From positions 184,951 to 248,950 of the forward strand of contig NZ_VOBR01000012.1 in the NCBI RefSeq assembly GCF_007845675.1: 64,000 nt of DNA. The letters run 5' to 3'. Below, one piece after another: positions 3,682 through 19,192 of this stretch; within the stretch, counting starts at the first letter, position 1; each line of letters starts with the position of its first letter. The stretch comes from Lentzea tibetensis (GTDB lineage: Bacteria; Actinomycetota; Actinomycetes; Mycobacteriales; Pseudonocardiaceae). The notes under the pieces were generated by a model. It searched no databases, was not told where the DNA came from, and was given only the letters and a program-made list of their open reading frames with translations. Made by a program: the position numbers and the translations under genes.

Positions 3682-4305
3682 TCAGAGCATTCCGGCGCGC
3701 ATCGCGTACGCCACCGAGTGGGACCGGTTGCGCAGGTTGAGTCGCGTGGTCATCGCGGAGATCAGGTTCTTGACGGTTCGCTCGGAGCAGCACACGGCTC
3801 GCGCGATCTCGCCCGCGTCCAGGCCGTCGGCGATCATCTGCAGCACCCTCACCTCGCGCGGGGTGAGCCCGGTGGCGTTCACCCCGCCGGGCGCCAGCAC
3901 GTCGCGCCGCATCATCTCGACGTGCTTGAGCAAGTCGCCCAGCAGTTGCGGCGGCAGGACTCCGCCACCGGTCGCCGCGGCTTCGACGCTGTGCAGCAGT
4001 CGTTCGCCGGTGGCCGCGGCCCGCAGGAGCACCGCGCCCACCCGGCACTCCACCACGGTCCGCAGGTCGCAGTCAGCGAATTCGTTGACCACCAATACAA
4101 CCGGTGTGCCGTGCTCGGCCGCAGCTCAGCGCAGGACGGACAGCGTTCCGACCGCGGGTCGTTCCATCTCCATCACCGCCACGTCGGCTTCAGCCCGTCG
4201 CCCGGCAGGCAGCACCTCGATCTCACATCTCGATCGGAGGTAGCTGGTGAGACCTTCGGCGCTGATCGGATCAGACGCCTGGACGGTGACGCGGACTCGC
4301 TCCAC
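3682..4305 (-). pseudogene. LuxR/NarL-type regulator interrupted by an in-frame TGA
   Basis: A 207-codon frame starts with GTG at 4305 (GAGG six to seven bases upstream) and reads through a receiver-like N-terminal half to TGA at 4126-4128 (codon 60). The same frame then continues without a break (AAAEHGTPVVLVVNEF...) into a good LuxR helix-turn-helix: LTPREVRVLQMIADGLDAGEIARAV, then SERTVKNLISAMTTRLNLRNRSHSVAYAM. The total length matches actinobacterial response-regulator-like LuxR proteins of about 205 aa. The stop could be a real nonsense mutation (CGA to TGA is the simplest route) or a sequencing error. A 137-aa HTH-only product could in principle start at TTG 4095, but no ribosome-binding site supports that. 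Confidence 0.75.
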
Positions 4306-4338
4306 GGTGAACCTCGCAGGTGCTCGACGGCATGCGCC

Positions 4339-4476
4339 GACGAGGTCGTCTCGCGTGCCGAGCTCATCGACGCCGTGTGGGGTGAGGCGGTGCTGGCGAG
4401 CGCCGTCTACACGTACGTCTCCTCGCTTCGGCGGGCGCTCGAACCGATGGGCGGGCAGGCCCTCTCAGCCCTCTGA
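4339..4476 (+). pseudogene. SARP/OmpR-type winged-helix remnant
   Basis: The plus-strand frame reads DEVVSRAELIDAVWGE, then SAVYTYVSSLRRALEP, which is the recognition-helix part of the trans_reg_C domain at the N-terminus of SARP/AfsR activators (typical: V-S-R-x-x-L-x-x-x-V-W-G, then Y-V-S-x-L-R-R-A-L). It lacks the preceding beta-sheet, a start codon, and any BTAD domain downstream; the frame stops at 4476. Most likely a decayed pathway-specific activator next to the biosynthetic operon. Confidence 0.6.
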
Positions 4477-4714
4477 CGTCACCCGCTGGCCGCCGTTCAC
4501 ACAGCGGCGGCGAGCAGACGCGGACGTCGGCGCTCCCGGATTGAGCAGAACGTCGCCCCCCTAGCGGTGGAAGGGCATCCGCCAGTTCGGCCAGCGTCAC
4601 GTCCCGCCACTCGACGGTCTCCGCCCTGCGCCCGAGGAACGACGGCAGGCAGGCGTTGCAGATCGAGGTCGATCCCACCCCGGAACGACACGTCCCGCAG
4701 GGCTCCTATACCAG

Positions 4715-4743
4715 TTGATTGCCGCAAGAGCATCCCCTAAAAA
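4715..4743 (+). promoter_or_regulatory. Candidate promoter of the phenazine/sugar operon
   Basis: TTGATT (4715-4720) and TAAAAA (4738-4743) are separated by exactly 17 bases in a locally AT-rich stretch (about 4710-4860) that contrasts with the surrounding high GC. The first supported start codon is GTG 4920, so this would leave a leader of about 170 bases. Nothing else gene-like was recognised between the SARP remnant and 4920. Confidence 0.35.
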
Positions 4744-4919
4744 TTCAAGCCACCCCTAGCATTCGAGACCCGTCGCAAATGGATTCACTACCGAAGTAAA
4801 GCCTTATCACCCCAATTGAGACGATGGGAACGATCTCTCCAATCAAGATGAACCCAACGTCTAGATTGCCCGTGAACTGCGTGACAGCCTTCGAACCCCG
4901 TCATTCCCCAGGAGGCCTG

Positions 4920-6209
4920 GTGTTCCAACGCATCGACGAGTTCCATGATTGGTGGAACCAGCAGCAACAGGCACATCCTTTTCATGTCACGCCTGCCCCG
5001 CTCGACCAGCTCACAGGCTGGTCAGCTGACCAGGACACGGGCGTCATCCGCCACCGGAGCGGCCGGTTCTTCTCGGTGGAAGGACTCGAGGTCAGCACCG
5101 ACCACGGATTTGTCGAGGAATGGTCACAACCCATCATCGACCAGCCGGAATCGGGAATTCTGGGAATCCTGGTGAAGCGGGTGCGCGGCGTTCCCTACTT
5201 CCTCATGCAGGCCAAGGCGGAGCCGGGGAATGTCAACGTGATCCAACTCTCCCCCACGGTGCAAGCCACGAAGAGCAACTACTCTCGCGTTCACCAGGGC
5301 AAGTCCGTGCCCTATCTGGAACATTTCCTGGCACCGCGACGAGGGCGGATTCTGTCCGACGTGTTGCAGTCCGAACAGGGCGCGTGGTTCCTGCACAAGC
5401 GGAACCGCAACATGATCATCGAGATCGACGAGGACGTCGACGCGCTCGACGGTTTCTGCTGGCTGAGCCGTGAGCAGCTCTCCGAGCTGTTCGCCGTCGA
5501 CAACCTGGTCAACATGGACTCGCGGACCGTGCTGGCGGGTTACCCGCTGCCCGGAACGAGCGCCGGCACGCACAACGACACCGCCAGCCTGCTGAGCTGG
5601 TTCACCGAGGCCAAGTCCCGCTACCGGCTCGACCGCAGGCGCATTCCGCTCAACGCCGTCAAGAAGTGGATCTGGTCGCCCGACGGCATCCGCCACGAGG
5701 ACGACAAGTACTTCTCGGTGATCGGCGTCGACGTCGTGGCCGGCAACCGCGAGGTGGCCGGCTGGTCGCAGCCGTTGCTCGCGCCCAAGCACCGCGGGCT
5801 CGTGGCGTTGCTGGTCCGGCGGGTCGACGGGCAGCTCCAGGTGCTCATGCGCGCGCTCACCCAGGCGGGCACGCTCGACGTCGTCGAGATCGGGCCGACG
5901 GTCCAGTGCGCGCCCGGCAACCACGCGGACACCGAGCCGCAGCCCGCGTTCCTCGACCACGTGCTGACCGCGCCGAAGGAGCGGTTGCTCTTCGACACCG
6001 TGCACTCGGAGGAGGGCGGCCGGTTCTACCACGCGGAGAACCGCTACGTGGTCGTCGACACGGGCGACCAGCTCCCCGACGACGTCGGCCACGACTTCAC
6101 CTGGATGACCCTCCCGCAGCTCGCGGAGCTCGCCCGGTACAGCAACCACGTCAACGTAGAGGCGCGCAACGTGTTGGCGTGCCTCATCTTCCAGCCGTCC
6201 GAGAGATGA
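4920..6209 (+). CDS. NDP-hexose 2,3-dehydratase (EvaA/TylCVI family)
   Basis: 429 aa. GTG 4920 is chosen because AGGAGG lies four bases upstream and the product begins right at the family start ([14 protein letters not shown]); an upstream ATG at 4824 has no such site. The protein shows the internal duplication typical of the family: FFSVEGLEV and [25 protein letters not shown] and [24 protein letters not shown] and IGPTVQCA. Family enzymes remove the C-2 hydroxyl from dTDP-4-keto-6-deoxyglucose to give a 3,4-diketo-2,6-dideoxyhexose. First gene of the operon, seven bases before the 3-aminotransferase. No glucose-1-phosphate thymidylyltransferase or 4,6-dehydratase is in the window, so the precursor must come from elsewhere (for example rhamnose genes). 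Confidence 0.9.
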
Positions 6210-6216
6210 GGCGCTG

Positions 6217-7326
6217 ATGACCACTCGCGTGTGGGACTACCTGACCGAGTACGAGAACGAGCGCGGTGACATCCTCGCCGCGGTCGACCGGGTGTTCCGT
6301 TCCGGCACGCTCGTCATGGGTGAGAGCGTGCGAAGTTTCGAGCGGGAGTACGCGGACTACCACGGGGTCGCGCACTGCGTCAGCTGTGACAACGGGACCA
6401 ACGCGCTCGTGCTCGCTCTCAGAGCGCTCGGAGTCGGTCCCGGCGACGAGGTGATCACGGTCTCGAACACGGCCGCTCCGACGGTGATCGCGATCGACCA
6501 GGTCGGCGCCACCCCGGTGTTCGTCGACATCGACCCGGACACGTACCTGATGGACACCAGCCAGGTGGCGGCGAAAGTCACCGAGCAGACCAAGTGCCTG
6601 CTGCCCGTGCACCTGTACGGCCAGTGCGTCGACCTGGAACCGTTGCGGCGCATCGCCGACCAGCACGGCCTCACGATCCTCGAGGACTGCGCGCAGGCCC
6701 ACGGCGCGCGGCGCGACGGCGTGCCGGCGGGCACGATCGGCGACGCGGCCGCGTTCTCCTTCTACCCCACCAAGGTTCTCGGCGCGTACGGCGACGGCGG
6801 CGCCACGATCACCAACGACGACCAAGTCGCCGCGAACCTGCGCCGGCTGCGCTACTACGGCATGGAGAAGCAGTACTACGTCGTCCAGACGCCCGGCCAC
6901 AACAGCAGGCTCGACGAGGTCCACGCCGAAATCCTGCGCACCAAGCTCATGCGGTTCGACGGCTACCTCGCCGCACGCCGGAAGGTCGCCCAGCGGTACT
7001 CCGAAGGCCTCGGCGACACCGAGCTGGTGCTGCCGAAGATCGCGCCGGGCAACGACCACGTCTACTACCTGTACGTCGTCCGCCACCCGAAGCGCGACGA
7101 GATCCTGGAACGGCTGAAGGCCTACGACGTCGAGCTGAACGTCAGCTACCGGTGGCCGGTCCACACGATGACCGGCTTCGCGCACCTCGGCTACGAGCCC
7201 GGCTCCCTGCCCGTCACCGAGCGGATGGCCGACCACATCTTCTCCCTGCCCATGTACGCCTCACTGTCGGAAGGCCTGCAGGACAAGGTCATCGGCGCGA
7301 TCCGCGAAGTGTTGCAGTCACTCTGA
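6217..7326 (+). CDS. PLP-dependent NDP-sugar C-3 aminotransferase (DegT/EryC1; EvaB/TylB-like)
   Basis: 369 aa, ATG seven bases after the dehydratase stop. DegT/DnrJ/EryC1 fold: [37 protein letters not shown], and the PLP lysine at residue 186 in [16 protein letters not shown], followed by [12 protein letters not shown]. The [14 protein letters not shown] signature is that of the 3-keto-sugar aminotransferases (TylB, DesV, EvaB). Placed directly after a 2,3-dehydratase, it most plausibly aminates C-3 of the diketo-2,6-dideoxy sugar, as in the vancosamine/epivancosamine routes. Regiochemistry is inferred from family resemblance and context. Confidence 0.88.
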
Positions 7327-7342
7327 AAGAAGGGTTCTGACG

Positions 7343-8470
7343 ATGCGAGTACTGGTCACCACAGTGGGACTGGTGGGACACATCTTCCCGCTGGTCTCCA
7401 TCGCACACGCGCTGCGCGCCGCCGGGCACGAGATCCTCTGGGCCACTCCCCAGCCGGAGCTCGTGGCGAAGGCGGGGCTGCCGGCCTTCGACCCCGCTCC
7501 GACAGCGAACCCCATGGAGATCATCCAGACGGTCCTTGCCAAGTACGGGCTCGGGTTCCAGATCAGCCGCGACGAGTACGCGAAAGAAATCGTGATGGGC
7601 GGCGAGCTGCTCGCTCGGCTCGGCGAGGTCACCATCGACCGCACGGTCGCGGTGACGCAGGGCTGGCGGCCCGACCTCGTCCTGCACGACGAGCTGCAGC
7701 CCGCGGGTCCGCTGATCGCGAGCATGTACGGCGTGCCCGCCGTCGAGCAGGTGCTCAGCGTCTGCGGCTACCGGGAGATCCGCGACGAGATGCGCCAGCA
7801 CCTCGATGAGGTGTACGACCGGCACGATGTCGTCGGCCCGCCGGAGAAGTCCGCGTTCCTCGACACCCGGCCGCCGAGCATGCGGCACCGCGAGTTCGAC
7901 GGCTGGTCGATGCGCCTCGTGCCGTACAGCGGCTCGAGCGTCCTGCCCGACTGGCTGCTGGAGCCGCCCGCCCGGCCGCGGGTCGCGATCACGCTCGGCA
8001 CGACGACCCCCGGGTTCATGGACCTGAGCGCGTTCCGCAAGGTGGTCGAGGCGGCGAGCCAGGTGGACGCCGAGTTCGTGCTGGCCACCGGGGACGCCGA
8101 CATCTCGGGGTTCGGCGAGCTGCCGGGCAACGTGCGCGCAGCGGGCTGGGTGCCGCTCCACTCGTTGCTGCAGACCTGCAGCTCGATGATCCACCACGTC
8201 GGCGGCGGCACCTCCATGACCGGGCTCGTCACCGGCATCACGCACCTCACGATGCCGCTGAGCGCGGACGCGTGGCAGGTCTCCGAACAGATCATGAAGC
8301 GCGGCCTCGGCGTGGAGGTGGCCACGCCCGACGAGATCGACGCCGAGATGATCCGCACGGTGCTGTTCGACTCGTCGATGCGCGCGGCGGCGGACGAGGT
8401 CAAGGCGGAGATCGCCGCCATGCCCTCTCCGGCGGATCTCGTGCCGCGGCTCGAAGAGCTGGTGGGCTGA
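7343..8470 (+). CDS. GT-B family 1 glycosyltransferase
   Basis: 375 aa, ATG with AAGAAGGG upstream. N-terminal acceptor domain begins MRVLVTTVGLVGHIFPLVSIAHALRAAGHE; C-terminal donor domain has ITLGTTTPG, then the nucleotide-sugar motif region VRAAGWVPLHSLLQTCSSMIHHVGGGTSMTG, where HHVGGGT replaces the usual HHGGAGT. This is the family of antibiotic deoxysugar transferases (CalG, EryCIII). It is sandwiched between the two aminotransferases, so it should move the cluster's aminodeoxysugar onto the phenazine aglycone. No P450-like helper protein of the DesVIII type is present. Confidence 0.9.
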   Translation: MRVLVTTVGLVGHIFPLVSIAHALRAAGHEILWATPQPELVAKAGLPAFDPAPTANPMEIIQTVLAKYGLGFQISRDEYAKEIVMGGELLARLGEVTIDRTVAVTQGWRPDLVLHDELQPAGPLIASMYGVPAVEQVLSVCGYREIRDEMRQHLDEVYDRHDVVGPPEKSAFLDTRPPSMRHREFDGWSMRLVPYSGSSVLPDWLLEPPARPRVAITLGTTTPGFMDLSAFRKVVEAASQVDAEFVLATGDADISGFGELPGNVRAAGWVPLHSLLQTCSSMIHHVGGGTSMTGLVTGITHLTMPLSADAWQVSEQIMKRGLGVEVATPDEIDAEMIRTVLFDSSMRAAADEVKAEIAAMPSPADLVPRLEELVG

Positions 8471-8472
8471 TC

Positions 8473-9609
8473 ATGATCAATGTTTCCCAGCCTTCGCTGG
8501 GCGTCGAGGAACTCGCCGCCGTCAAGGAAGTCTTCGAGAGCAACTGGATCGGCAAGGGTGCGCGGGTGGACGCGTTCGAGGCCGCCTTCGCCGAGCACAT
8601 CGGAGTCCGGCCGGAGAACGTCGCCACCCTCAACACCTGCACCGAGGCGCTGTTCCTGTCCATGAAGCTGCTCGAGATAGGCGCGGGCGACGACGTCGTG
8701 CTGCCCACGACGAGCTTCGTCGCGCAGGCCAACGCCATCGCGGCGCACGGCGCGCGCCCGGTGTTCTGCGACGTGGACCCCCGCACGCAGAACCCGACGC
8801 TCGCCGACGTCCAGGCGGCGATCACCCCGGCGACCAAGGCCGTGATGGTGCTGCACTTCGGCGGCTACCCCGGTGAGGTCGAGCAGATCGCCGAGTTCTG
8901 CCGGGAGCGCGGCATCTTCCTCATCGAGGACAGCGCCAACTCCGTCGCGTCCCGTGTGGACGGTCAGGCGGTCGGCACGTTCGGCGACATCGGCGCGTGG
9001 AGCTTCGACTACGCGAAGATGGTCGTGGCCGTGGACGGCGGCATGATCTACGCCCGCGACCCGAAGCTGATCGAACGCGCCCGCAAGATCGCGTTCTTCG
9101 GCCTCGAGCAGGAGAGCAACTCCTCGCAGGCCGAGCGGCACGCGAACCGGTGGTGGGACATCGAGGTCAGCTCGTTCGGCAGGCGCACCATCATGAACGA
9201 CGTGCACGCGGCCGTCGGTCACGTGCAGCTGACCAAGCTGCCGTCGTTCGTGGCGCACCGGCGGTCGATCACCGAACGCTACGACGCCCTGCTGGCCGGC
9301 GTGCCGGGCGTCGTGGTGCCCCCGCCGCTGCCGGCGGGGCACGAGAACTCGTACTACTTCTACTGGGTGCAGCTCCCCGAGGGCATCCGCGACCAGGTGG
9401 CCAAGGAGCTGTACGCGCGCGGCATCTACACGACCTACCGGTACACGCCGCTGCACCGGGTCGGAGCCTACGGCGCGGACGTGTCGCTGCCCAAGGCCGA
9501 GCGCGCCGCCGAGTGCACGCTCAACCTGCCGATCCACCAGTCGCTGACGGAGTCCGATGTGGACACCGTGGTGGCCGCGCTGCGAGACGTGTTGGCGAAC
9601 CTCATCTGA
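8473..9609 (+). CDS. PLP-dependent NDP-4-keto-sugar C-4 aminotransferase (DegT family; CalS13/AtS13-like)
   Basis: 378 aa. ATG 8473 is two bases after the glycosyltransferase stop, implying translational coupling; the longer upstream frame would overlap that gene. DegT family: NTCTEALFLSMKLLEIGAGDDV, LHFGGYPGE, LIEDSANSVASR, PLP lysine at residue 182 in WSFDYAKMVVAVDGG, then MIYARDPKLIERARK and FFGLEQESNS. The WSFD-x-x-K plus DGGM-Y-RDP pattern is that of C-4 aminotransferases of the CalS13/SpnR type, clearly different from the SFYPTK type two genes upstream. With no ketoreductase in the cluster, C-4 amination would complete the sugar. Confidence 0.85.
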   Translation: MINVSQPSLGVEELAAVKEVFESNWIGKGARVDAFEAAFAEHIGVRPENVATLNTCTEALFLSMKLLEIGAGDDVVLPTTSFVAQANAIAAHGARPVFCDVDPRTQNPTLADVQAAITPATKAVMVLHFGGYPGEVEQIAEFCRERGIFLIEDSANSVASRVDGQAVGTFGDIGAWSFDYAKMVVAVDGGMIYARDPKLIERARKIAFFGLEQESNSSQAERHANRWWDIEVSSFGRRTIMNDVHAAVGHVQLTKLPSFVAHRRSITERYDALLAGVPGVVVPPPLPAGHENSYYFYWVQLPEGIRDQVAKELYARGIYTTYRYTPLHRVGAYGADVSLPKAERAAECTLNLPIHQSLTESDVDTVVAALRDVLANLI

Positions 9610-9628
9610 GACGTGCTTGGGAGGAACT

Positions 9629-10087
9629 GTGTCCGAGGCGGAACTGCGCGGCCGCAACCGCGCCACGGTCGAGAAGTACATGCGAACCAAGGGACAGGAC
9701 CGGCTGCGCAGGCACGAGCTGTTCGTGGAGCACGGCCGGGCCGGTCTGTGGACCAGCGACAAGCTGGACCCCATCGAGACCACCGGACGTGACCGCCTCG
9801 CCGAGCACGCCAAGTGGTCGCTGGAGTGCTTCCCGGACTGGGAGTGGTACGACGTCGAGGTCTTCGAGACCCAGGACCCGAACCGCTTCTGGGTGGAGTG
9901 CGACGGCCGCGGGAAAATCCTCTTCCCCGGATATCCGGAAGGGTTCTACGAGAACCACTTCCTGCACTCGTTCGAACTGTCCGACGGCCTGATCGTGCGC
10001 CAGCGCGAGTTCATGAACCCGTTCCAGCAGTTGCGCGCGCTCAGCATTCCGGTGCCCGAGATCCGCCGCGAAGGCATTCCCACCTAG
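9629..10087 (+). CDS. phzB: Phenazine biosynthesis protein PhzA/PhzB (first copy)
   Basis: 152 aa. GTG 9629 has GGGAGGA three bases upstream. Ketosteroid-isomerase/NTF2-like fold of the PhzA/B family: RNRATVEKYMRTKGQDRLRRHELF, LECFPDWEWYDVEVFET, FWVECDGRGKILFPGYPEG, NHFLHSFELSDGLI, REFMNPFQQLRALSI. PhzA/B catalyses condensation of two PhzF-derived aminoketones into the tricyclic phenazine skeleton; the family's histidine (EHAKWSL) and glutamate (REFMNP) positions are retained. First gene of the phenazine core, 43 bases before phzD. Confidence 0.93.
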   Translation: MSEAELRGRNRATVEKYMRTKGQDRLRRHELFVEHGRAGLWTSDKLDPIETTGRDRLAEHAKWSLECFPDWEWYDVEVFETQDPNRFWVECDGRGKILFPGYPEGFYENHFLHSFELSDGLIVRQREFMNPFQQLRALSIPVPEIRREGIPT

Positions 10088-10130
10088 ACCGCACCGGGTC
10101 ACCTGACCCACCGATCACAGGAGACCTCAG

Positions 10131-10754
10131 ATGCCCGGTATCCCGCCGATCGTCGGCTACGCCTTACCTTCCAGCGCGGATCTGCCCGAGTCGATTCCGC
10201 AGTGGACCTTCGACCCGGAACGCGCCGTGCTGCTGGTGCACGACATGCAGCTGTACTTCCTCTCCCCGTTCCCCGAGCCCATGCGGGAGGAGCTGGTCGC
10301 GGCGGCGGCCGCGTTGCGCGACCAGTGCGCGAAGCGCGGGGTGCAGGTGGCCTACACCGCGCAGCCCGGCAGCATGACCGACGAGCAACGCGGACTGCTC
10401 AAGGACATCTGGGGTCCCGGCATGCGGGCGAACGGGCAGAACCAGGAGATCGTGCCGCAACTCGCGCCCGCCGACGGGGACTGGGTTCTCACGAAGTGGC
10501 GTTACAGCGCGTTCGCCCGGACCGACCTGCTCGAGCGGTGTCGCGCGGCCGGGCGCGACCAGCTCGTGCTGTGCGGGGTCTACGCGCACGTCGGGGTGCT
10601 GGCCACCGCGCTCGACGCGTACAGCAACGACATCCAGCCGTTCTTCGTCGCTGACGCGACAGCCGACTTCACCGAGGACCACCACCGAATGGCACTCGAC
10701 TACGCGGCCGCTCGCTGCGCGGTGGTCACAACGGCAAAGGGGCTACTCACATGA
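10131..10754 (+). CDS. phzD: 2-amino-2-deoxyisochorismatase PhzD
   Basis: 207 aa, ATG with AGGAGA upstream. Isochorismatase-fold hydrolase that releases pyruvate from 2-amino-2-desoxyisochorismate (the PhzE product) to give trans-2,3-dihydro-3-hydroxyanthranilate. Catalytic Asp38 ([10 protein letters not shown]) and Lys122 (TKWRYSAF) fall at the positions known for Pseudomonas PhzD, and the nucleophile-elbow region reads [19 protein letters not shown], followed by [15 protein letters not shown]. Length matches the family. Overlaps phzE by four bases (ATGA). Confidence 0.97.
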
Positions 10755-12628
10755 CAGCACCATTCCTGTTGGACGACGTGTTCACCGGCCGCGCCGGCCC
10801 GTTCGCGCTGCTGCACCGGCCAGACGCGACCGGCCACGGAGTGCTCGACGTGCTGACCGGTCCGGTGTCCGAGCACGAGACGCTCGACGACCTGCCCCTC
10901 CCGGCCGGCGACTGCGACGAGGTGCTCGCCCTCGTCCCCTACCGGCAGCTCACCGAACGCGGGTTCGCCTGCCACGACGACGGCACCCCGCTCGTCGCGC
11001 TCACGGTCACGGCCAGCCAGCGGCTACCGCTCACCGAGTTGCTCGCCCACATCCCGGACGTGCCGACACCGGTCATCGGTGGCCGGTTCGACCTCGACGA
11101 CGACACCTACGCGAGCACCGTCCGCAGGGTGATCGAGAAGAACATCGGCGCCGGTGAAGGCGCGAACTTCGTGCTGAAGCGGTCCTTCACCGCCGACATC
11201 GGCAACTACGGCCCCCTCAGCGCGCCCGCGTTCTTCCGCAGGCTGCTGACCACGGAGAAGGGTGCCTACTGGACGTTCCTGGTGCACACCGGCGAACGGA
11301 CGCTCGTCGGCGCCTCACCGGAACGGCACGTCAGCCTGAACGACGGCACCGTCGTGATGAACCCGATCAGCGGCACTTACCGCTACCCGCCGACCGGCCC
11401 GACCCCGCAGGGAGTGCTGGAGTTCCTCGAGGATCAGAAGGAGACCGACGAGCTCTACATGGTCCTCGACGAGGAACTGAAGATGATGGCCCGCATCTGC
11501 GAGAGCGGCGGCCGCGTGATCGGCCCCCGGCTCAAGGAGATGGCCAGGGTCGCGCACACCGAGTACTTCATCGAGGGCCGCAGCACCCGTGACGTGCGGG
11601 AGATCCTGCGCGAGACGATGTTCGCGCCGACCGTCACCGGCAGCCCGCTGGAGAACGCGTGCCGCGCCATCCGCGACTACGAGCCCGGCGGCCGCGGCTA
11701 CTACAGCGGCGCCGCCGCGTTGATCGGCTGGGATGCCCGCGGCGAGCAGACGCTGGACTCGGCGATCCTCATCCGCACCGCGGACATCGACCGCACCGGC
11801 CGGGTCCGCATCGACGTCGGCGCCACCATCGTGCGGCACTCGAACCCCGAGTCGGAGGCCGCCGAGACTTCGGCCAAGGCGGCGGCGCTGGTCGCGGCGC
11901 TCGAATCGGAACGCACGACACTCGGCACCCATCCGTCCGTCCGGGCCGCGCTGGCCCGCCGCAACGACACCATCGCGGACTTCTGGCTCTCCGACTTCAC
12001 CGCGCGGGCCGACCCGCACGCCGGGCTGACCGGCCGCGAGGTGCTGGTGATCGACGCCGAGGACAGCTTCACCGCCATGATCGGACACCAGCTGACCGCG
12101 CTCGGCCTGCGGGTGACCGTCCGCGGTCACGACGAGGATCCGGACGACTCCGGCTACGACCTCGTGGTGATGGGGCCAGGCCCCGGCGACCCGCGCGACC
12201 TGGCCCACCCGAGGATCGGCTTCCTGCACCGCCGGATCACGCGCCTGCTCGCCGAGTCACGCCCGTTCCTCGCGGTGTGCCTGAGCCACCAGGTCCTCAG
12301 CCTGCTGTTCGGGCTCGACCTGCACCGCCGTGAACAGCCGAACCAGGGCGTGCAGGCCAAGATCGACCTGTTCGGCTCGCCGGCACAGGCCGGGTTCTAC
12401 AACACCTTCGCCGCGTTGAGCACCCACGACGAGTTCACCGTGGACGGTGTGGGGCGGGTCGAGGTCGCTCGCGACCCGGAGACGAACGAGGTGCACGCCT
12501 TGCGCGGCAACCGCTTCGCCTCCATGCAGTTCCACCCCGAGTCCGTGCTGACCGCCGACGGCCCTCAGCTCGTCGGCGCCACGCTGCTGAGGCTGCTGGG
12601 TCGTCCCGCCGCCATCGAAGTCGCCTGA
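10751..12628 (+). CDS. phzE: 2-amino-2-deoxyisochorismate synthase PhzE (TrpE-TrpG-type fusion)
   Basis: 625 aa. N-terminal two thirds are a chorismate-utilising domain ([54 protein letters not shown]); the C-terminal third is a class I glutamine amidotransferase with [11 protein letters not shown], the nucleophile Cys in [14 protein letters not shown], and the His-Glu pair in MQFHPESVL. It converts chorismate and glutamine-derived ammonia to 2-amino-2-desoxyisochorismate, the committed step. Fused architecture and length match PhzE rather than primary-metabolism anthranilate synthase. Start overlaps phzD. Confidence 0.97.
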
Positions 12629-12639
12629 GGAGAACTGTG

Positions 12640-13491
12640 GTGCACCACTACGCGGTGGCGGACGCGTTCGCCGACAAACCCCTGCACGGCAACCCGGTCG
12701 CGGTGTTCTTCGACGCAGACGACCTCACGCCGGAGCAGATGCAGCGCATCGCGCGCGAGACGAACCTGTCCGAGACCACCTTCGTGCTGCGGCCCGAGCA
12801 GGGCGGCGACGCGCACATCCGGATCTTCACCCCGGTCAACGAGCTGCCGTTCGCCGGGCACCCGCTGCTCGGCACCGCGATCGTGCTCGGCTGCCGCGGC
12901 CACGGCGCGCGGCTGCGACTGGAGACCGCGATGGGCGTCGTCCCGTTCGAGGTGGAGGTCGGTGGCAGTAACGCCAAGGGCAGGCGCACCGGGCACGCCA
13001 CGATGCGCCAGCCCGTGCCCACCTGGCGGCCGTTCGACCGGACCGGCGAGCTGCTCGACGCGCTCGGCGTGCCGGAACCGCCGTTCCCGGTGGAGATCTA
13101 CCACAACGGCCCCCGGCACGTCCTGGTCGGACTGGACAGCATCGCGTCGCTGTCCAAAGTGGATCCGGACCACCGTGCGCTCGCCGGGTTCGAGGACATG
13201 GCGGTCAACTGCATCGCGGGTTCGGGAACGCGGTGGCGCAACCGGATGTTCTCGCCCGCCTACGGGGTGGTCGAGGACGCTGCCACCGGCTCGGCCGCGG
13301 GCCCGATCGCCATCCACGCCGCACGGCACGCCCAGGCGCCGCACGGTCAGTGGGTGGACATCGCCCAGGGCGTGGAGATCGGGCGGCACTCCCTGATGCG
13401 CGCCCGGATCGAACTCGACGGCGATCACGTCGAGTCGGTCGAGGTCGGCGGGCACGGCGTCGTCGTGGCGGAGGGCACGTTCCATGTCTGA
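12640..13491 (+). CDS. phzF: trans-2,3-dihydro-3-hydroxyanthranilate isomerase PhzF
   Basis: 283 aa. Two adjacent GTG codons (12637, 12640) are possible; the second is preferred because it leaves seven bases after GGAG and puts the catalytic glutamate at position 45 (NLSETTF), as in characterised PhzF. DAP-epimerase-like fold with two halves: GNPVAVFFDADDLTPEQMQ, INELPFAGHPLLGTAIVLG-type segment, and EDAATGSAAGPIAIHA. It isomerises dihydrohydroxyanthranilate to the reactive aminoketone that PhzA/B dimerises. Overlaps phzG by eight bases. Confidence 0.96.
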   Translation: MHHYAVADAFADKPLHGNPVAVFFDADDLTPEQMQRIARETNLSETTFVLRPEQGGDAHIRIFTPVNELPFAGHPLLGTAIVLGCRGHGARLRLETAMGVVPFEVEVGGSNAKGRRTGHATMRQPVPTWRPFDRTGELLDALGVPEPPFPVEIYHNGPRHVLVGLDSIASLSKVDPDHRALAGFEDMAVNCIAGSGTRWRNRMFSPAYGVVEDAATGSAAGPIAIHAARHAQAPHGQWVDIAQGVEIGRHSLMRARIELDGDHVESVEVGGHGVVVAEGTFHV

Positions 13492-14134
13492 GAGAACCAG
13501 GTCCGAGTCGCTCACCGGGACGATCGTGGCCGCCTTCCCGGAGTACGCCGATCCTCCCGGTGACCCGTTCGAGCTGTTGACGTCGTGGCTGTCGGCCGCC
13601 GAGCAGAACGGGGTGCGCGAGCCGAGGGCGTTGGCGCTGGCCACGGCGGACGAACACGGGCGCACGTCGTCCCGAGTCGTCGTGCTGAGCCGGATCACGC
13701 CGTCCGGCCTGGTGTTCGCCACGCACCGGGACAGCCGCAAGGGCCGCGAACTCGCGGTGAACCCGTGGGCGTCCGGGGTCCTGTACTGGCGTGAGACCAG
13801 CCAGCAGGTCGTCGTCGCCGGACCGGTGCGGCTGTTGCCGGACGACGAGGCCGACGCGATGTGGGCGGCCCGGCCACCGTTCACCCACGCCATGACCACC
13901 GCGTCACGGCAGAGCCACCCGCTGACCGACGTCGCCGCCCTGCGCGCGAAGGCTCATCTGCTCGGCGCCGAACCGTTGCCACGTCCGGACAACTACGCCG
14001 GCTACGTGCTCGAGCCTGCGGAGATCGAGTTCTGGGCCAACGGCTCGGACCGGCTGCACGAACGACTGCACTACGAACGACTGGGCTACGACCGGGACGA
14101 CACCGGCTGGCACACCACGAGGTTGCAACCATGA
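13484..14134 (+). CDS. phzG: Phenazine FMN-dependent oxidase PhzG
   Basis: 216 aa. Pyridoxamine-5'-phosphate-oxidase fold with FMN-binding segments: ALATADEHGRTSSRVVVLSR, LVFATHRDSRKGRELAVNP, GVLYWRETSQQVVVAGPVRLL, and a C-terminal PHZG-type end (VLEPAEIEFWANGSDRLHERL, then YDRDDTGWHTTRLQP). PhzG oxidises the hexahydro/tetrahydro-phenazine products to the aromatic level. ATG overlaps phzF; its stop overlaps the next start in an ATGA, so the two are translationally coupled. Confidence 0.94.
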   Translation: MSERTRSESLTGTIVAAFPEYADPPGDPFELLTSWLSAAEQNGVREPRALALATADEHGRTSSRVVVLSRITPSGLVFATHRDSRKGRELAVNPWASGVLYWRETSQQVVVAGPVRLLPDDEADAMWAARPPFTHAMTTASRQSHPLTDVAALRAKAHLLGAEPLPRPDNYAGYVLEPAEIEFWANGSDRLHERLHYERLGYDRDDTGWHTTRLQP

Positions 14135-14619
14135 CAGTCCTTTTCGGAAACACTACCGACGCGGACCTGCGGGCCCGCAACCGGCACGCGGTCGAGCAGT
14201 ACTTCCGCACCGGTCCCGAGGCGAGGCTCAGCCGCTACCTGCTCTACACCGAGGACGGCACGGCGTCGCTGGTCAACACCGACATCGGCAGACCGATCAC
14301 GGTCCGCGGCCGGGAGAAGCTCAAGCGGCACAACGAACTGTCGCTGCAGGTGCTCCCGGACTGGGAATGGCACGACGTGGTTCTCTACGAGACGCACGAC
14401 CCCGGCACCATCTGGGTCGAGTGCGACGGCGAGGGCACCATCCGGTTCCCGGACTACCCCGAAGGCCACTACCGCAACCACTTCGTGCACGGGTTCACCC
14501 TCGTCGACGGGCTCATCGCGGCGAGCAGGGAGTACGCGAACCCGATCGAGCACATGCGGTCACTCGGCATCGAGACCCCGCACATCAAGCGCGACTTCAT
14601 TCCCTCAGGAGAGGAGTGA
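14131..14619 (+). CDS. phzA: Phenazine biosynthesis protein PhzA/PhzB (second copy)
   Basis: 162 aa. Same NTF2-like family as the copy at 9629: RNRHAVEQYFRTGPEARLSRYLLYTE, VRGREKLKRHNELSLQVLPDWEWHD, WVECDGEGTIRFPDYPEGHY, NHFVHGFTLVDGLIAASREYANPIEHMRSLGI. Both copies keep the histidine and glutamate positions used in catalysis, so neither looks like an obvious non-catalytic partner. The two copies bracket phzD-E-F-G instead of lying next to each other as phzA-phzB do in pseudomonads; which deserves which letter is arbitrary. Start overlaps phzG (ATGA). Confidence 0.92.
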   Translation: MTVLFGNTTDADLRARNRHAVEQYFRTGPEARLSRYLLYTEDGTASLVNTDIGRPITVRGREKLKRHNELSLQVLPDWEWHDVVLYETHDPGTIWVECDGEGTIRFPDYPEGHYRNHFVHGFTLVDGLIAASREYANPIEHMRSLGIETPHIKRDFIPSGEE

Positions 14620-14621
14620 CC

Positions 14622-15623
14622 ATGGACCACGAAGCTTCCCGTGCCGCGATCGACCTGGTCACCGCGGCGTGGCGCTCCCAGGTCGTGCACGTCGCGGCAT
14701 CGCTGCGGCTGCCTGACCTCGTCGCGGCCGGACATCGCACCAGCGCGGCATTGGCCTCGCCGACCGGCGTCGACGCCGCGGCGTTGCACAGGCTGCTGCG
14801 CGTGCTGGCGTTGCTCGGTCTGTTCGATGGCGACGACACCGGCGGATACACCGTCACCGCGGTGGGCGAGCAGTTCCAGGACCGGCCAGGATCGTTGCGC
14901 GACACGGCCCTGCTCTACGCCGACGAGTTCTACACCGCCTGGGGCCACGCCGCGGAGTCGTTCCGCACCGGCGTACCGGGGTTCGAGCTGGCGTTCGGCC
15001 GCACGCTGATCGACTACCTCGGGGAGGACGCCGACGCCGCGGGCCGCTTCCAGCGCAGCCTGCGCGCCAACAGCTTCTTCTTCGACGCCGTGCCCGACGT
15101 GATCGACTTCGGGCACAGCACCCACGTGGCCGACATCGGCGGCGGCAGCGGGCTGCTGCTGTCCACCGTGCTCCGCGCCGCGCCCCGCACCCGCGGCACC
15201 TACCTCGACCTGGAACACACCATCCCGATCGCCCGCGAGCACTTCACCGCGACGGTCGGGACGGACCGGGTCGACCTGGTCGCCGCCGACATGTTCACCG
15301 CCGCGCTGCCCGAGGCCGACACCTACCTCTTGTCACGGGTGCTGGGTGACTGGTCCGACGACGACTGCGTGCGGCTGCTGCGCAACGTCCGGCGGGCGAT
15401 GCCACCACACGCCCGTCTGCTGATCATCGAGCGGGTCGTGCACGACGACCAGCCGGGTCTGCTCGCCCCGCTGTGGGATCTGCAGCTCTTCGTGCTCAAC
15501 GGAGGCACGCAACGGGAGTACCGCACCTACACCGATCTCGCCGCGCGGTCCGGGTTCGCGATCAAGGAGTCGGTCGCGCTGCCCATGGAGAACTCCGCGC
15601 TCGTGCTCATCCCGACCGACTGA
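14622..15623 (+). CDS. SAM-dependent O-methyltransferase-family enzyme (first)
   Basis: 333 aa, ATG two bases after the preceding stop, GGAGAGGAG upstream. N-terminal dimerisation/winged-helix region (RLPDLVAAGHRTSAALASPTG, ALHRLLRVLALLGLF) and C-terminal class I methyltransferase domain with SAM motif VADIGGGSGLLLSTVL, the acidic YLDLEHT, LLSRVLGDWSDDDCVRLLRN and LLIIERVV. This is the family of plant-type OMTs and of PhzM, so a phenazine oxygen, nitrogen or carboxylate could be the acceptor; sequence alone does not decide. Confidence 0.88.
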   Translation: MDHEASRAAIDLVTAAWRSQVVHVAASLRLPDLVAAGHRTSAALASPTGVDAAALHRLLRVLALLGLFDGDDTGGYTVTAVGEQFQDRPGSLRDTALLYADEFYTAWGHAAESFRTGVPGFELAFGRTLIDYLGEDADAAGRFQRSLRANSFFFDAVPDVIDFGHSTHVADIGGGSGLLLSTVLRAAPRTRGTYLDLEHTIPIAREHFTATVGTDRVDLVAADMFTAALPEADTYLLSRVLGDWSDDDCVRLLRNVRRAMPPHARLLIIERVVHDDQPGLLAPLWDLQLFVLNGGTQREYRTYTDLAARSGFAIKESVALPMENSALVLIPTD

Positions 15624-15637
15624 CCGGAAGGAAGACC

Positions 15638-16642
15638 GTGACCACAGAAGTGAGACCCGGCCTGCTGGTCGAGTACGCGCTCAGCTACCTGTACTCGTCA
15701 GCCTTGAACACCGCTGCCCGGCTCGGTGTCGCGGACCACCTCCACGACGGTCCCCGCACCGCCGCCGAGCTCGCCGCCGCCACCGGCGCACACGGTCCGA
15801 ACCTGCACCGCGTGCTGCGTTTCCTCGCCACCCGCGGCGTGTTCCGCGAGGACGACGAGTCCCGCTTCCACCTGACACCGCTGGCCGAGCCACTGCGCGC
15901 GGACTCACCGAAGTCGTTGCGGGACTTCGTCCTCAGCCTCGGTGACGGAATCTTCCTCGAGCCCGCCGCCCGCATGTACGACACCGTTGTCTCCGGGCGG
16001 GCCGTTTTCGACGACATCTTCGACGCGCCGTTCTACGAGCACCTCGCGAACGACCCTGTGACCGGCCCCGCCTACAACGCCGGCATGGCGGCCTTCTCCA
16101 ACCTGGTCAGCAACGACGTCACCGCCGCCTACGACTTCCCGGACCACGCGGTGGTCGTCGACGTCGGCGGCGGCCGGGGCGGCCTGCTGCGCAGCATCCT
16201 GCTGCAGCACCCGCACGTCACCGGCGTCCTGTTCGACCTGCCCAGCGTCGTCGACGACCACGTACTGGACGAACCGGACCTGGCCGGGCGCTGGCGCGTG
16301 GAGAGCGGCGACTTCTTCGAGTCGGTCCCCGAAGGCGGCGACGTCTACGTCTTCAAGCACGTCTTCGCGAGCTGGTCCGACGCCGACTGCCTGCGACTGC
16401 TCTCCACGTGCCGCAAGACCATGCCCGACAACGGACGGGTCCTGGTCGTCAACGGCGTCATCCCGCCGGGCAACGACCCCCACCCCGGCAAGACCATCGA
16501 CGTCCTGATCCTGAACCTGCTGGGCGGCAAGGAACGCACCCTGCCCGAGTACGAGTCGCTGCTCGTCGAGGCCGGCTTCACGGTCAGCCGCGTCATTCCC
16601 GTGTCACCCAACGCAACCATCATCGAGGGGACTCCCGCATGA
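15638..16642 (+). CDS. SAM-dependent O-methyltransferase-family enzyme (second)
   Basis: 334 aa, GTG with GGAAGGAAG upstream. Paralogous architecture to the previous gene: LGVADHLHDGPRTAAELAAATG, LHRVLRFLATRGVF, SAM-binding VVDVGGGRGGLLRSILL, then FDLPSVVDD, FKHVFASWSDADCLRLL, VLVVNGVIPPGND and LILNLLGGKERTLPEY. The dissimilar C-terminal substrate region suggests a different acceptor from the first enzyme. Stop overlaps the start of the monooxygenase (ATGA), tying it to the same transcript. Confidence 0.88.
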   Translation: MTTEVRPGLLVEYALSYLYSSALNTAARLGVADHLHDGPRTAAELAAATGAHGPNLHRVLRFLATRGVFREDDESRFHLTPLAEPLRADSPKSLRDFVLSLGDGIFLEPAARMYDTVVSGRAVFDDIFDAPFYEHLANDPVTGPAYNAGMAAFSNLVSNDVTAAYDFPDHAVVVDVGGGRGGLLRSILLQHPHVTGVLFDLPSVVDDHVLDEPDLAGRWRVESGDFFESVPEGGDVYVFKHVFASWSDADCLRLLSTCRKTMPDNGRVLVVNGVIPPGNDPHPGKTIDVLILNLLGGKERTLPEYESLLVEAGFTVSRVIPVSPNATIIEGTPA

Positions 16643-17766
16643 CCCGCACCGTCGAACCTACGAGCCCAGCCCTCGAGGACCTGCTCGCCGTGGTGGCCGA
16701 GCGCCGCGCCGAGTTCACCGCGCTGCGCGACATCCCGCGCGACGTGATGGAGAAGTTCCGCGCGGCCGGCGTCTACCGCGCCGCCACACCGAAGATGTTC
16801 GGTGGCGACGCGCTCCCGCCGCGCCAGTACCTGCGCATGGTCGAGCGGATCGCCGAGGTGGACGGCTCCGCGGGCTGGATGGCCAGCATCGAGGTCGCCA
16901 AGATCTACCTGGCCGCCCTGCCACTGGAAACCCAGGCCAAGCTGTACTCGACCGGCCCGGACGTCGTGTTCGCAGGCGGTCTCTTCCCCATGCAACCGGC
17001 CGAACGCGAGCCAGGAGGCTTCAAGGTGAGCGGGCAGTGGCGGTTCGCCAGCGGCTGCACGAGCGCCGACATCCTCGCCGTCGGCATCAGGACCGAAGAC
17101 GACAAGGCGCGCATGGCGGTGCTGCCCGCCGAAGACGTCGAGATCGTCGAGAACTGGGACGTCGTCGGCATGGAGGGCACCGGCAGTCACGACCTGAGGA
17201 TCAACGGCGTCGTCGTGCCCGACGAGTGGACCTTCCTCCGCGGCGGCCGCGCGAACGTCGACGAGCCCCTGCACCGCTACCCCGCCGTGCCCTACGCCGC
17301 GCAAGCGTTGGCGGCGGTCAACCTCGGCATCGCCCGAGCCGCGCTCGACCACCTCACCCAGGTCGGCGCGGGCCGCACCGGCCTGACCGGAGCAGCCCAG
17401 CTCGCCGACCGTCCCTACGCGCGGATCGCCGTCGGCAAAGCCGAAGCCGCGCTGCGCTCGGCCCGCGCCTTCTTCTACGAGGTGACCGACGAGGTGTACG
17501 CGACGGTCACCTCCGGCACGCCGGCGTCGGTCGAGCAGGCCAGCTCGATCCGGCTGGCCGCCGCACACGCGGCCGCGGTCAGCTTCGACGTCGTGCGCAC
17601 CGCCTACAGCCTCGCCGACATCTCGGCGATCAGCTCCGGCCACCCGCTGCAGCGCCACCTGCGGGACGCGTCGGTCGTCCCGCACCACGCCTTGCTGACC
17701 GAGGGCGTCTACGACGGTGCGGGAGCGGTCCTGATGGGCGTCAAACCCGCTCCCGGCTACGTCTGA
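16639..17766 (+). CDS. Acyl-CoA-dehydrogenase-fold flavin monooxygenase (HsaA/HpaB-like, group D)
   Basis: 375 aa. Acyl-CoA dehydrogenase fold without CoA-ligand features: MEKFRAAGVYRAATPKMFGGDALPP, VSGQWRFASGCTSADILAVG, ENWDVVGMEGTGSHDLRINGVVVPDEWTF, ARAFFYEVTDEVYATVTSG. This matches two-component FMNH2/FADH2-dependent hydroxylases that oxygenate aromatic rings; the flavin reductase partner is not in the window and would act from elsewhere. Likely role: ring hydroxylation that creates a phenol for methylation or glycosylation. Last gene of the main operon. Its final codons are repeated at 19432-19487. Confidence 0.82.
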   Translation: MTRTVEPTSPALEDLLAVVAERRAEFTALRDIPRDVMEKFRAAGVYRAATPKMFGGDALPPRQYLRMVERIAEVDGSAGWMASIEVAKIYLAALPLETQAKLYSTGPDVVFAGGLFPMQPAEREPGGFKVSGQWRFASGCTSADILAVGIRTEDDKARMAVLPAEDVEIVENWDVVGMEGTGSHDLRINGVVVPDEWTFLRGGRANVDEPLHRYPAVPYAAQALAAVNLGIARAALDHLTQVGAGRTGLTGAAQLADRPYARIAVGKAEAALRSARAFFYEVTDEVYATVTSGTPASVEQASSIRLAAAHAAAVSFDVVRTAYSLADISAISSGHPLQRHLRDASVVPHHALLTEGVYDGAGAVLMGVKPAPGYV

Positions 17767-17769
17767 CGG
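17714..17769 (+). repeat. 56-bp direct repeat, copy 1 (3' end of monooxygenase gene)
   Basis: Covers the last codons (...GAGAVLMGVKPAPGYV, stop) of the monooxygenase plus three following bases. The 51 bases 17719-17769 are identical to 19437-19487; extending leftward to 56 bases adds one mismatch (17718 T versus C). Confidence 0.95.
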
Positions 17770-17785
17770 AGGCAGCCCAATCGCC

Positions 17786-18778
17786 TCAACCGCTCGGCGC
17801 GTGCCGAGCAGCGCCGGCTCGGAGCAGGGCGAGGGCGAACAGCCCCGCCGGGATGATCAGCCAGCAGGAGAACAGCCGGTAGCCGAGGACGACGGCCGCG
17901 GCGGGCGCCTCACTCGCGCCCGCCGCGATCAGCGCGGCGAGCAGACTCGCCTCGATCACGCCCATCCCGCCGGGCGTCAGCGGCACCTGGCGCACCAGTT
18001 GGACGACCACGTACGCCGTGCCCACCTCGACGAACGTCAGCGGCAGGTGGAACGCCTGCGCGACAGCGGCCAGGCAGCAGAGGTCGGCCAGCCAGTTGAC
18101 GATCGCGAAGGCGAGAGCGCCGCGCCGATAGCGCGTCCGCAAGGTCACCATCGCCGTCACCGCGTGCCGAGCGCTCGCCCGCCAACCGCTCGACGTCCAG
18201 TCGTCCCCGTGTCCCGGAACGCCGTGCGAGTCGGGCTCGCAGCGACGGGTCGCCTCCCACACCGCGAACACCAGGAGGGTGATCACGAGCGCCCCCGCGA
18301 TCACCGAGCCGGCCGGGTGCGCCCGCCAGGTGTCCTGCGGGTGCGCCGCCAACAGGGTGAGGAATCCGAACAGGTACAACAACGCCAGACCCGCCGTCGA
18401 CAACACCCCGGACAGCAGGAGCACAGTCGCCGCGACCTCTGTGCTCGCACCCGCCTTGCGGAACGCCTTGTAGGCGAAGCCCGCCGAGACGGCCGACCCG
18501 GCGGGCATGCTGATGGCGATGGCCGAACGCCCGTACGTGACGGCGATGGACCGCCAGATCGTCAGGGACACGCCGAAACCCCGCAGGAGCCACCACTGCT
18601 GGCGGGCGAACATCCTCATCGAGACCAGTTCGGCTACGAGTGCCAGCAGCAGCCAGCCGACGTCGGCCGTCCGGACGACCGGCACCAGGTCGGACATCTT
18701 CGGCAGTGACCGGTACACCAGCGCACCCGCCGCCACGAGTGCCACCGCAGTGAGGATTGGCCGCCACCAACGTCTCAT
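17786..18778 (-). CDS. Lysylphosphatidylglycerol synthetase-like / UPF0104 flippase-type membrane protein
   Basis: 330 aa. ATG 18778 (MRRWWRPILTAVALVAAGALV) follows GGGAGAAG; an upstream in-frame extension to 18910 is not membrane-like and was rejected. About seven to eight membrane segments, with the family hallmark VVVQLVRQVPLTPGGMGVIEASLLAALIAAG near the C-terminus and RQQWWLLRGFGVSLTIWRS, GRSAIAISMPAGSAVSAGFAYKAF in the middle. This is the transmembrane domain of MprF-like proteins without the soluble aminoacyl-transferase half; it probably flips or handles a lipid. Oriented against the phenazine operon and inside the segment bounded by the direct repeat, so probably not part of the pathway. 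Confidence 0.8.
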   Translation of the reverse strand: MRRWWRPILTAVALVAAGALVYRSLPKMSDLVPVVRTADVGWLLLALVAELVSMRMFARQQWWLLRGFGVSLTIWRSIAVTYGRSAIAISMPAGSAVSAGFAYKAFRKAGASTEVAATVLLLSGVLSTAGLALLYLFGFLTLLAAHPQDTWRAHPAGSVIAGALVITLLVFAVWEATRRCEPDSHGVPGHGDDWTSSGWRASARHAVTAMVTLRTRYRRGALAFAIVNWLADLCCLAAVAQAFHLPLTFVEVGTAYVVVQLVRQVPLTPGGMGVIEASLLAALIAAGASEAPAAAVVLGYRLFSCWLIIPAGLFALALLRAGAARHAPSG

Positions 18779-18916
18779 CCACTTCTCCCGGCAGTTACTA
18801 GACGCAGCCGTTCCGTTTTGGTCGACGGTAGACCCACCACCCGGCCGACACGACAACCGGGGTCCCGAGTCGCTCACGCATTCCGCCGTCCAGCTGGCCC
18901 GACGCGTCATACGAGG

Positions 18917-19192
18917 TCAGACGGGCGTGTTGTTGGCTCGCCACTGCAGAAACTCCGATACCGAGGTGACGTCGCTGAAGTCGGGACGGCGGGTCTCCTG
19001 GCAGCCTTCGACGTAGACCACTGTGCGGCCTTCGTCGTCTTTCGGAACGGACTGACGAGGTCTCGCGTCGCTCGCGGAGTTCACCACGTCCGGTCTGGCG
19101 CCGTTCGACGGCTGAGCGGCCGCCACGCCCGGCGACGCGACGACAGCCGCCCCCAGCGTGAAACACACGGCCGTGACGACCGCACGTCGCAA
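18917..19192 (-). CDS. Small secreted hypothetical protein
   Basis: 91 aa. MRRAVVTAVCFTLGAAVVASPGVAAAQ is a clear signal peptide with AxA cleavage; the mature part is about 65 residues, polar, with a single cysteine (VEGCQETRRPDFSDVTSVSEFLQWRANN). No family recognised. Lies between the LPG-synthase-like gene and the second copy of the direct repeat. Confidence 0.5.
   Translation of the reverse strand: MRRAVVTAVCFTLGAAVVASPGVAAAQPSNGARPDVVNSASDARPRQSVPKDDEGRTVVYVEGCQETRRPDFSDVTSVSEFLQWRANNTPV

Follow-up and report, generated by a model that had tools for sequence, protein, structure and literature searches.

Judged from its genes, a 13-gene operon of Lentzea tibetensis appears to combine a phenazine pathway with a diamino-deoxysugar branch of its own, an arrangement for which we found no precedent. 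The operon would make a phenazine carrying a thymidine diphosphate (dTDP)-derived 3,4-diamino-2,3,4,6-tetradeoxyhexose, a reading to which we assign a probability of about 0.55; that it would make some aminosugar phenazine, whichever the sugar, seems to us very probable. It lies at positions 4824-17766 of the DNA analysed here, a stretch of 64,000 nucleotides (nt; G000:C14:184951-248950; hereafter the window) from a genome of 9.36 Mb in 105 contigs, and the right end of the window is also the end of the contig. An earlier sequence-only reading had described a phenazine operon with aminosugar genes at 4920..17766. Profile matches recovered all the genes that it named, in the order given, and its end coordinate is right; the operon starts 96 bp earlier. 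The 13 genes follow one another thus:

4824..6209, + strand, nucleoside diphosphate (NDP)-hexose 2,3-dehydratase, 461 amino acids, two domains (PF03559, Hexose_dehydrat, 516 bits)
6217..7326, + strand, sugar 3-aminotransferase of the EvaB/TylB/DesV type, 369 amino acids (DegT, 370 bits; pyridoxal phosphate (PLP) lysine aligned)
7343..8470, + strand, EryCIII-like glycosyltransferase, 375 amino acids (PF06722/PF21036, 110 and 92 bits)
8473..9609, + strand, sugar 4-aminotransferase of the TlmJ type, 378 amino acids (DegT, 306 bits; TlmJ (5UID), 502 bits)
9629..10087, + strand, phzB (PF03284, 274 bits; GTG start, picked by eye)
10131..10754, + strand, phzD, isochorismatase family (PF00857, 139 bits; 52-69% identical to other phz loci)
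10751..12628, + strand, phzE, chorismate-binding and glutamine amidotransferase parts (PF00425 and PF00117; up to 70% to Streptomyces PhzE)
12637..13491, + strand, phzF (PF02567, 244 bits; TIGR00654 over cut-off)
13484..14134, + strand, phzG (NF038138, 305 bits against a cut-off of 270)
14131..14619, + strand, second, trailing phzA/B gene in the phzA position (PF03284, 200 bits; ATG start)
14622..15623, + strand, PhzM-like methyltransferase (MT1), probable phenazine N-methyltransferase (2IP2, 247 bits; next match 178)
15638..16642, + strand, methyltransferase of the O-methyltransferase type (MT2; CalO1, 261 bits; 6C5B, 220 bits)
16639..17766, + strand, oxygenase component of a flavin-dependent monooxygenase with the acyl-CoA-dehydrogenase fold (PF08028, 85 bits)

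Intergenic distances within this run range from -8 to +43 bp and ATGA-type overlaps are present; as all the genes share one strand, they may fairly be read as a single operon. The four sugar genes are each full length and in frame, and the third-position GC of the operon genes is high (0.82-0.94), like that of the genes around them, the trailing phzA/B lying outside these gene calls. A simple scan of window positions 3500-19500 gave no promoter-like sites (0.6 expected) and two terminator-like sites (5.2 expected). The genes phzB, D, E, F and G, the set by which we recognise a phenazine cluster, stand together in one gene run (Pfam, NCBIfam), and the PhzG match is the only one over cut-off in the whole genome. 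Alignment to PhzF of Pseudomonas aeruginosa PA7 shows conservation of E45, H74 and D208, which we take to be the catalytic residues. A P. aeruginosa PA7 operon encodes two PhzA/B proteins, and PhzB is 75% identical to one of these; a histidine and a glutamate of a PA7 PhzB, presumably functional, are present in both PhzA/B proteins of the Lentzea operon. The genes, their families, order and packing, the PhzF residues and the aligned PLP lysines are thus read directly from the DNA.

The sugar half turns on the two aminotransferases. The best solved relatives of the 3-type enzyme are 7B0D (326 bits), QdtB (296 bits) and 2OGA (277 bits), the last of which we take to be DesV; perosamine synthetase, a 4-aminotransferase, scores 238 bits. 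The 4-type enzyme matches TlmJ (5UID) at 502 bits, with perosamine synthetase next at 185, and its PLP lysine is also aligned. The assignment of one 3-type and one 4-type enzyme by the sequence-only reading stands, by rank against the solved QdtB, DesV and TlmJ and by gene neighbourhood. In the fetched stretches around 20 of the 21 top-scoring non-own places of the 3-type enzyme in the family (the 21st, L166, belongs to the 4-type sample), we found a 2,3-dehydratase by 18/20, an epimerase by 16/20, a ketoreductase by 12/20 and phzE by 3/20. Since 3-type kin stand beside phzD/phzE in three of these loci, the sugar set already accompanies chorismate-derived aromatics.

For the 4-type enzyme there are 62 non-own places over threshold (53 in 391 family genomes and 9 in 394 class genomes), and within the family a TlmJ-type enzyme occurs in 50 other genomes. 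Forty of the 62 were fetched, taking the top-scoring part of each list. In 27/40 a further deoxysugar gene of at least 40% identity is close by; eight more match RmlB alone, at about 30% (35/40 if counted), and five have none. A 2,3-dehydratase was found near 17/40 and an RfbH-type 3-dehydratase near 10/40, whilst phz genes were found in 0/40 of the fetched stretches. D-forosamine pathways (spinosyn, auricin) share the 2,3-dehydratase and 4-aminotransferase with the operon. They differ from it in employing a 3-ketoreductase and an RfbH/SpnQ 3-dehydratase as well and in having no 3-aminotransferase; such an RfbH/3-ketoreductase-type set was seen at L148. Neither an RfbH/SpnQ-type 3-dehydratase nor a Gfo/Idh 3-ketoreductase of the forosamine pathway was found in the window by tblastn. 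Three plasmid loci were read among the eight plasmid matches listed for the 4-type enzyme. A 60% relative on a plasmid of Streptomyces exfoliatus is adjoined by RmlA, RmlB, RfbH, a 2,3-dehydratase and a Gfo/Idh reductase, which we would read as the gene set of a 4-amino-tetradeoxy sugar; a second plasmid relative has RmlB and RfbH about 11 kb away; and a 55% relative lies on pSA3239, the auricin plasmid. Passages of two papers (PMC8910723, PMC6784081) give auricin as carrying D-forosamine, a 4-aminosugar, and describe pSA3239; the link of this relative to forosamine would be by plasmid location, the gene being unnamed in those passages.

The 2,3-dehydratase, 3-aminotransferase and 4-aminotransferase are all in the operon and closely spaced, and every gene for dTDP-3,4-diamino-2,3,4,6-tetradeoxyhexose is there except RmlA/RmlB. 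Both genes of the 3-amino-2,3,6-trideoxyhexose branch (EvaA/EvaB type), a 2,3-dehydratase and a DesV/QdtB-group 3-aminotransferase, are likewise present; the 4-ketoreductase that finishes a 3-amino-4-hydroxy sugar was not found in the window (tblastn) and one occurs in a neighbouring cluster on the same contig. Searching the window by tblastn with RmlB, RmlA, Gfo/Idh reductase, two epimerase, C-methyltransferase and ketoreductase queries returned no match, and an RfbH query matched just the two aminotransferases, at 27%. The Pfam scan took in 40 of the 56 called open reading frames (ORFs) of the window and found no methyltransferase match beyond the operon's two, no query having been aimed at sugar N-methyltransferases. 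No operon gene alone would be expected to finish a simpler sugar, and the 3,4-diamino-2,3,4,6-tetradeoxyhexose is the most economical sugar that we infer from the gene set.

The nearest solved relatives of the glycosyltransferase are CalG3 (260 bits), two rhamnosyltransferases (216 and 210 bits) and SnogD (211 bits), of which we take CalG3 and SnogD to be transferases of amino sugars. We considered a C-glycosyltransferase identity: the protein is 33-34% identical to IroB, and CalG3 and SnogD outscore SsfS6 and 2P6P (presumably UrdGT2), scores that would not settle C- versus other type. A scan of named genomes gave no relatives. Within the genus, 24 other genomes gave nothing closer than a 44% match, and four fetched places of relatives in the genus (two of them short stretches) held no other operon genes.

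Among solved methyltransferases the best match of MT1 is 2IP2 (PhzM, "probable phenazine-specific methyltransferase"). MT1 is 62% identical to the gene that follows phzA in Streptomyces tuirus, and relatives of at least 40% identity occur in 17 of the 62 other phenazine core loci described below. As MT1 is nearest PhzM, the aglycone is probably N-methylated, with MT1 probably acting on a phenazine ring nitrogen. MT2 also matches 6C5B, which we take to be LaPhzM, a phenazine O-methyltransferase, and has relatives of at least 50% identity in 4/62 core loci. PpzM, which is similar to PhzM, was identified as a phenazine N-methyltransferase by gene deletion and was inactive in vitro with phenazine carboxylic acid alone, according to passages of PMC3326630.

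We envisage the following route. PhzE, PhzD, PhzF, PhzB/A and PhzG would convert chorismate to phenazine carboxylic acid; the PhzM-like MT1 would methylate a ring nitrogen, the monooxygenase would hydroxylate the ring and MT2 would methylate a hydroxyl. RmlA and RmlB, encoded elsewhere in the genome, would supply dTDP-4-keto-6-deoxyglucose, from which the 2,3-dehydratase would remove the C-2 hydroxyl to give a 3,4-diketo-2,6-dideoxy sugar. The first aminotransferase would then aminate C-3 and the second C-4, yielding dTDP-3,4-diamino-2,3,4,6-tetradeoxyhexose, and the CalG3/SnogD-like glycosyltransferase would attach the diamino sugar to the phenazine. Here, the substrates, the order of steps with C-4 amination after that at C-3, the stereochemistry, the attachment site and the expression are what we infer. 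In D-kijanose/tetronitrose pathways a single 2,6-dideoxy sugar is aminated by both a 3- and a 4-aminotransferase, and a C-3 methyltransferase and a nitrososynthase take part as well. Unlike these, the window has no C-methyltransferase, and the monooxygenase has no match named KijD3 or DnmZ.

How unusual is this combination? We pooled 118 loci: from the family 25 phzB places (every non-own place above 200 bits, weaker ones of 43 bits or less being left out), 2 plasmid loci, 11 loci of a class sample and 80 PhzE loci of named genomes, these last being the best 80 of at least 551 relative-encoding stretches (594 stretches). Genes phzB, E and F occur together in 62/118, and phzB, D, E, F and G in 56/118; of the 56 loci outside the 62, 50 show just phzD or phzE of these genes. 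The 62 core loci include Pseudomonas, and at least 5 kb 5′ of phzB is in view in 59 of them; two pairs have phzE at least 98% identical, so the loci are not all independent. Neither a 2,3-dehydratase nor RmlB was found in any of them (0/62 each), a glycosyltransferase relative occurs in 1/62 (L066, 39%) and a distant DegT protein in 1/62 (L090, 33%). The phenazine core with an aminosugar set is therefore unique within the 62-locus sample. At L066, from another family of the class, the glycosyltransferase (8494-9615; 38-39% identical) stands directly 5′ of phzB; deoxysugar queries gave no match there, and the locus is another possible phenazine glycoside cluster.

The passages of a 2024 review (PMC11477647) name glucose, rhamnose (also 2′-O-methyl) and arabinofuranose on bacterial glycosylated phenazines, and one nitrogen-bearing sugar, N-acetylglucosamine in a trisaccharide on 1-hydroxyphenazine, from detoxification by Caenorhabditis elegans. 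The bacterial glycosides named there carry neutral sugars, as the sequence-only reading had said of known phenazine glycosides. Endophenasides, solphenazines, izuminosides, 4-O-glucosyl-phenazine carboxylic acid and an arabinofuranoside are sugar-bearing phenazines, as is proposed for the operon product. No aminosugar phenazine appeared in titles or the starts of abstracts, most subscription papers being outside the search. The words "phenazine" and "aminodeoxysugar" both occur in the parts seen of PMC8621598 and PMC5367009, for different compounds, and "amino sugar" has 0 occurrences in the part seen of a 2021 phenazine review (PMC8620606). Papers on TlmJ with tallysomycin, and on the diamino sugar, were sought and none was found.

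The phenazine core itself is of a familiar kind. Its order, B-D-E-F-G-A, is that of the endophenazine ppz cluster of Streptomyces anulatus (ppzBCDEFGA in passages of PMC3326630) without C. Like the ppz/epz clusters of S. anulatus 9663 and S. cinnamonensis in the same passages, the operon has a trailing PhzA and a PhzM-like N-methyltransferase; those clusters prenylate, whereas the operon carries a deoxyaminosugar set and a glycosyltransferase, lacks phzC and, by Pfam, has no prenyltransferase among its 13 genes. Loci of S. caatingaensis (L068) and S. tuirus (L074) have B-D-E-F-G-A with an MT1 relative (58-62%) immediately after it, as in the operon, and phzA 77-78% identical to the operon's where aligned; over about 10 kb either side of phzE, neither locus matches the operon's dehydratase, either of its aminotransferases or its glycosyltransferase. 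Among the loci compared, phzE and the trailing phzA are nearest Streptomyces and Kitasatospora: identity reaches 70% for phzE and is 77-81% for phzA against the trailing copies of several clusters. Within its own family, the 25 phzB loci give at most 65% for phzE and 55% for the trailing phzA.

The dehydratase has a different affinity. In a tree of 36 it groups with that of L195 (same genus, 66%) and those of L217/L204 (same family, 59%), with support of 100/99. The 3-type enzyme falls in a group of nine (97/96) whose inside is unresolved. Three genomes (L195+L216, L217+L204 and L201) share phzD, phzE, RmlA, RmlB and a 3-aminotransferase that ranks among the nearest to the operon's; the 2,3-dehydratase is in two of these three loci, L201 being cut by the contig end. 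A short-chain dehydrogenase/reductase (SDR) and a flavin adenine dinucleotide (FAD) monooxygenase were seen in L195, and an FAD monooxygenase in L204. As no match to phzB, phzF or phzG, nor to the 4-aminotransferase, was found in their fetched stretches, these loci are not phenazine clusters; they look like clusters that would couple a 3-hydroxyanthranilate-like unit to a 3-aminosugar. Given the clade of its dehydratase, the operon is probably a mosaic, with a phz core of the Streptomyces type, a dehydratase and possibly also a 3-aminotransferase common to phzD-phzE/aminosugar clusters, and a TlmJ-type enzyme. The fuller proposal, a dicationic, N- and O-methylated 3,4-diamino-2,3,4,6-tetradeoxyhexosyl phenazine from a mosaic of that make-up, is tentative, at just under an even chance.

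Several observations weigh against a diamino sugar made wholly by the operon's enzymes. The claim of the sequence-only reading that a ketoreductase and an epimerase are lacking holds for the operon and the window and breaks down for the neighbourhood: 23-26 kb upstream of the operon, the contig carries both. Moreover, the operon has no phzC, RmlA, RmlB or flavin reductase and no transporter (the sole RmlB over cut-off in the genome sits on contig C24), and the acceptor of the glycosyltransferase is not readable from its sequence. A 3-type enzyme was found in the stretch for just 3/40 of the 4-type relatives (L166, L177 and L181), so serial action of both on one sugar is uncommon and unproven. 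Lastly, in a tree of 19 the monooxygenase stands apart from same-fold genes of other phenazine loci and of sugar clusters. Ring hydroxylation is therefore weakly based and would be a guess for this enzyme; of the methylation foreseen by the sequence-only reading, that by MT1 is probably on nitrogen. Taken together, that reading was mostly right and slightly over-precise.

A possible source of other sugars lies 18-32 kb upstream on the same contig: an RmlA-type gene, two glycosyltransferases, an epimerase, a ketoreductase at C14:165313-166305, a second 2,3-dehydratase, an aromatic hydroxylase, a sugar C-methyltransferase and a 3-aminotransferase 73% identical to the operon's. With ketosynthase- and carrier-protein-like genes further upstream (read from their N-termini), this region (G000:C14:145000-177000; L005, L006) is probably a cluster for a type II polyketide that bears a vancosamine-type (3-amino-3-C-methyl) sugar. 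Its ketoreductase, epimerase or C-methyltransferase acting in trans, or just one aminotransferase acting, would place a different aminosugar on the phenazine, for instance one of L configuration, a 3-C-methylated one or a 3-amino-2,3,6-trideoxy sugar (residue mass 129.079). We think this unlikely: the enzymes are at hand on the contig, and ketoreductases and epimerases frequent the neighbourhoods of 3-type relatives, but the operon itself encodes a dehydratase and a 3-aminotransferase, its dehydratase falls in a clade away from the neighbour's, and the co-transcribed 4-aminotransferase would have nothing to do if a ketoreductase acted at C-4. An origin of the dehydratase from the adjacent cluster was rejected, as it is just 49% identical to the neighbour's copy, which falls elsewhere in the tree; the neighbour's 3-aminotransferase is also excluded from the group of nine.

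There is, in our view, a slight chance that the aminotransferases serve two donors, one a 3-amino and the other a 4-amino sugar, which the operon's or an upstream glycosyltransferase would transfer to different acceptors, among them the neighbour's product. The two upstream glycosyltransferase genes and the 37/40 4-type relatives without a 3-type enzyme in their stretch would suit this; however, the operon has one 2,3-dehydratase and one glycosyltransferase, and the RfbH needed for a forosamine-type sugar was not found in the window. It is also rather improbable that the operon is silent or yields an unglycosylated phenazine, the sugar genes being a recent, non-working addition. A 71-nt duplication at 19421-19491 by the right border, the lack of a good gene at about 4100-4800 and a sugar set in 0/62 core loci fit such a history, yet the four sugar genes, full length, in frame, high in third-position GC and set close against the phz genes, speak against it.

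Phenazines are coloured, redox-active antibiotics, and aminosugars change charge, uptake and nucleic-acid binding in anthracyclines; if an aminosugar phenazine is made, its basic diamino sugar would alter these properties of a flat, redox-active ring system. According to passages of PMC11477647, glycosylated phenazines mostly lack remarkable activity. The small operon holds both halves except RmlA, RmlB, phzC and flavin reductase and could be expressed in one piece; its glycosyltransferase and the proposed two-step amination lend themselves to testing.

Further observations concern related genes. At L177 (7706-10615) and L181 (7648-10554), epimerase, 3-type and 4-type aminotransferase genes are adjacent, with no phz genes in the stretch; both aminations may act on one sugar there too. 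A third PhzA/B gene of the genome, on contig C31 (L019, G000:C31:52000-71900), is accompanied by phzD, phzE, a PucR-type regulator and a methyltransferase 46% identical to MT1. Neither phzF nor phzG was found within about 10 kb either side, and L019 is a second, partial phenazine locus of the genome.

The best matches of the operon monooxygenase are Rv3094c (198 bits) and the HsaA-type 2RFQ (111 bits). In the tree of 19 it pairs (96/94), on a long branch, with the window gene at 20634-21743, a second acyl-CoA-dehydrogenase-fold monooxygenase (33% identical) beside a luciferase-like gene (20634-22681), a pair that we take to resemble Rv3094c-Rv3093c. Nitrososynthases share this fold; a KijD3/DnmZ-type nitrososynthase making a nitro or nitroso sugar was rejected, as no KijD3 or DnmZ entry is among 24 matches up to E 10. 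In the lomofungin cluster, per passages of PMC4549113, lomo9, annotated as an acyl-CoA dehydrogenase, adjoins lphzB and the proven hydroxylase is lomo10.

A 71-nt direct repeat (92%) at 17703-17773 and 19421-19491 copies the end of the monooxygenase gene, with a lysylphosphatidylglycerol-synthase-like gene (17786-18910, minus strand) between the copies, and suggests that the DNA was rearranged at this end of the operon. On the 5′ side, no ORF passed the gene filter at about 4100-4800, which by eye reads like regulator debris; a short LuxR-type gene (3682-4095, minus strand) lies beside this ORF-poor stretch. Elsewhere in the window, positions 26564-30166 encode a 1200-amino-acid nSTAND1 NTPase with many WD40 repeats.

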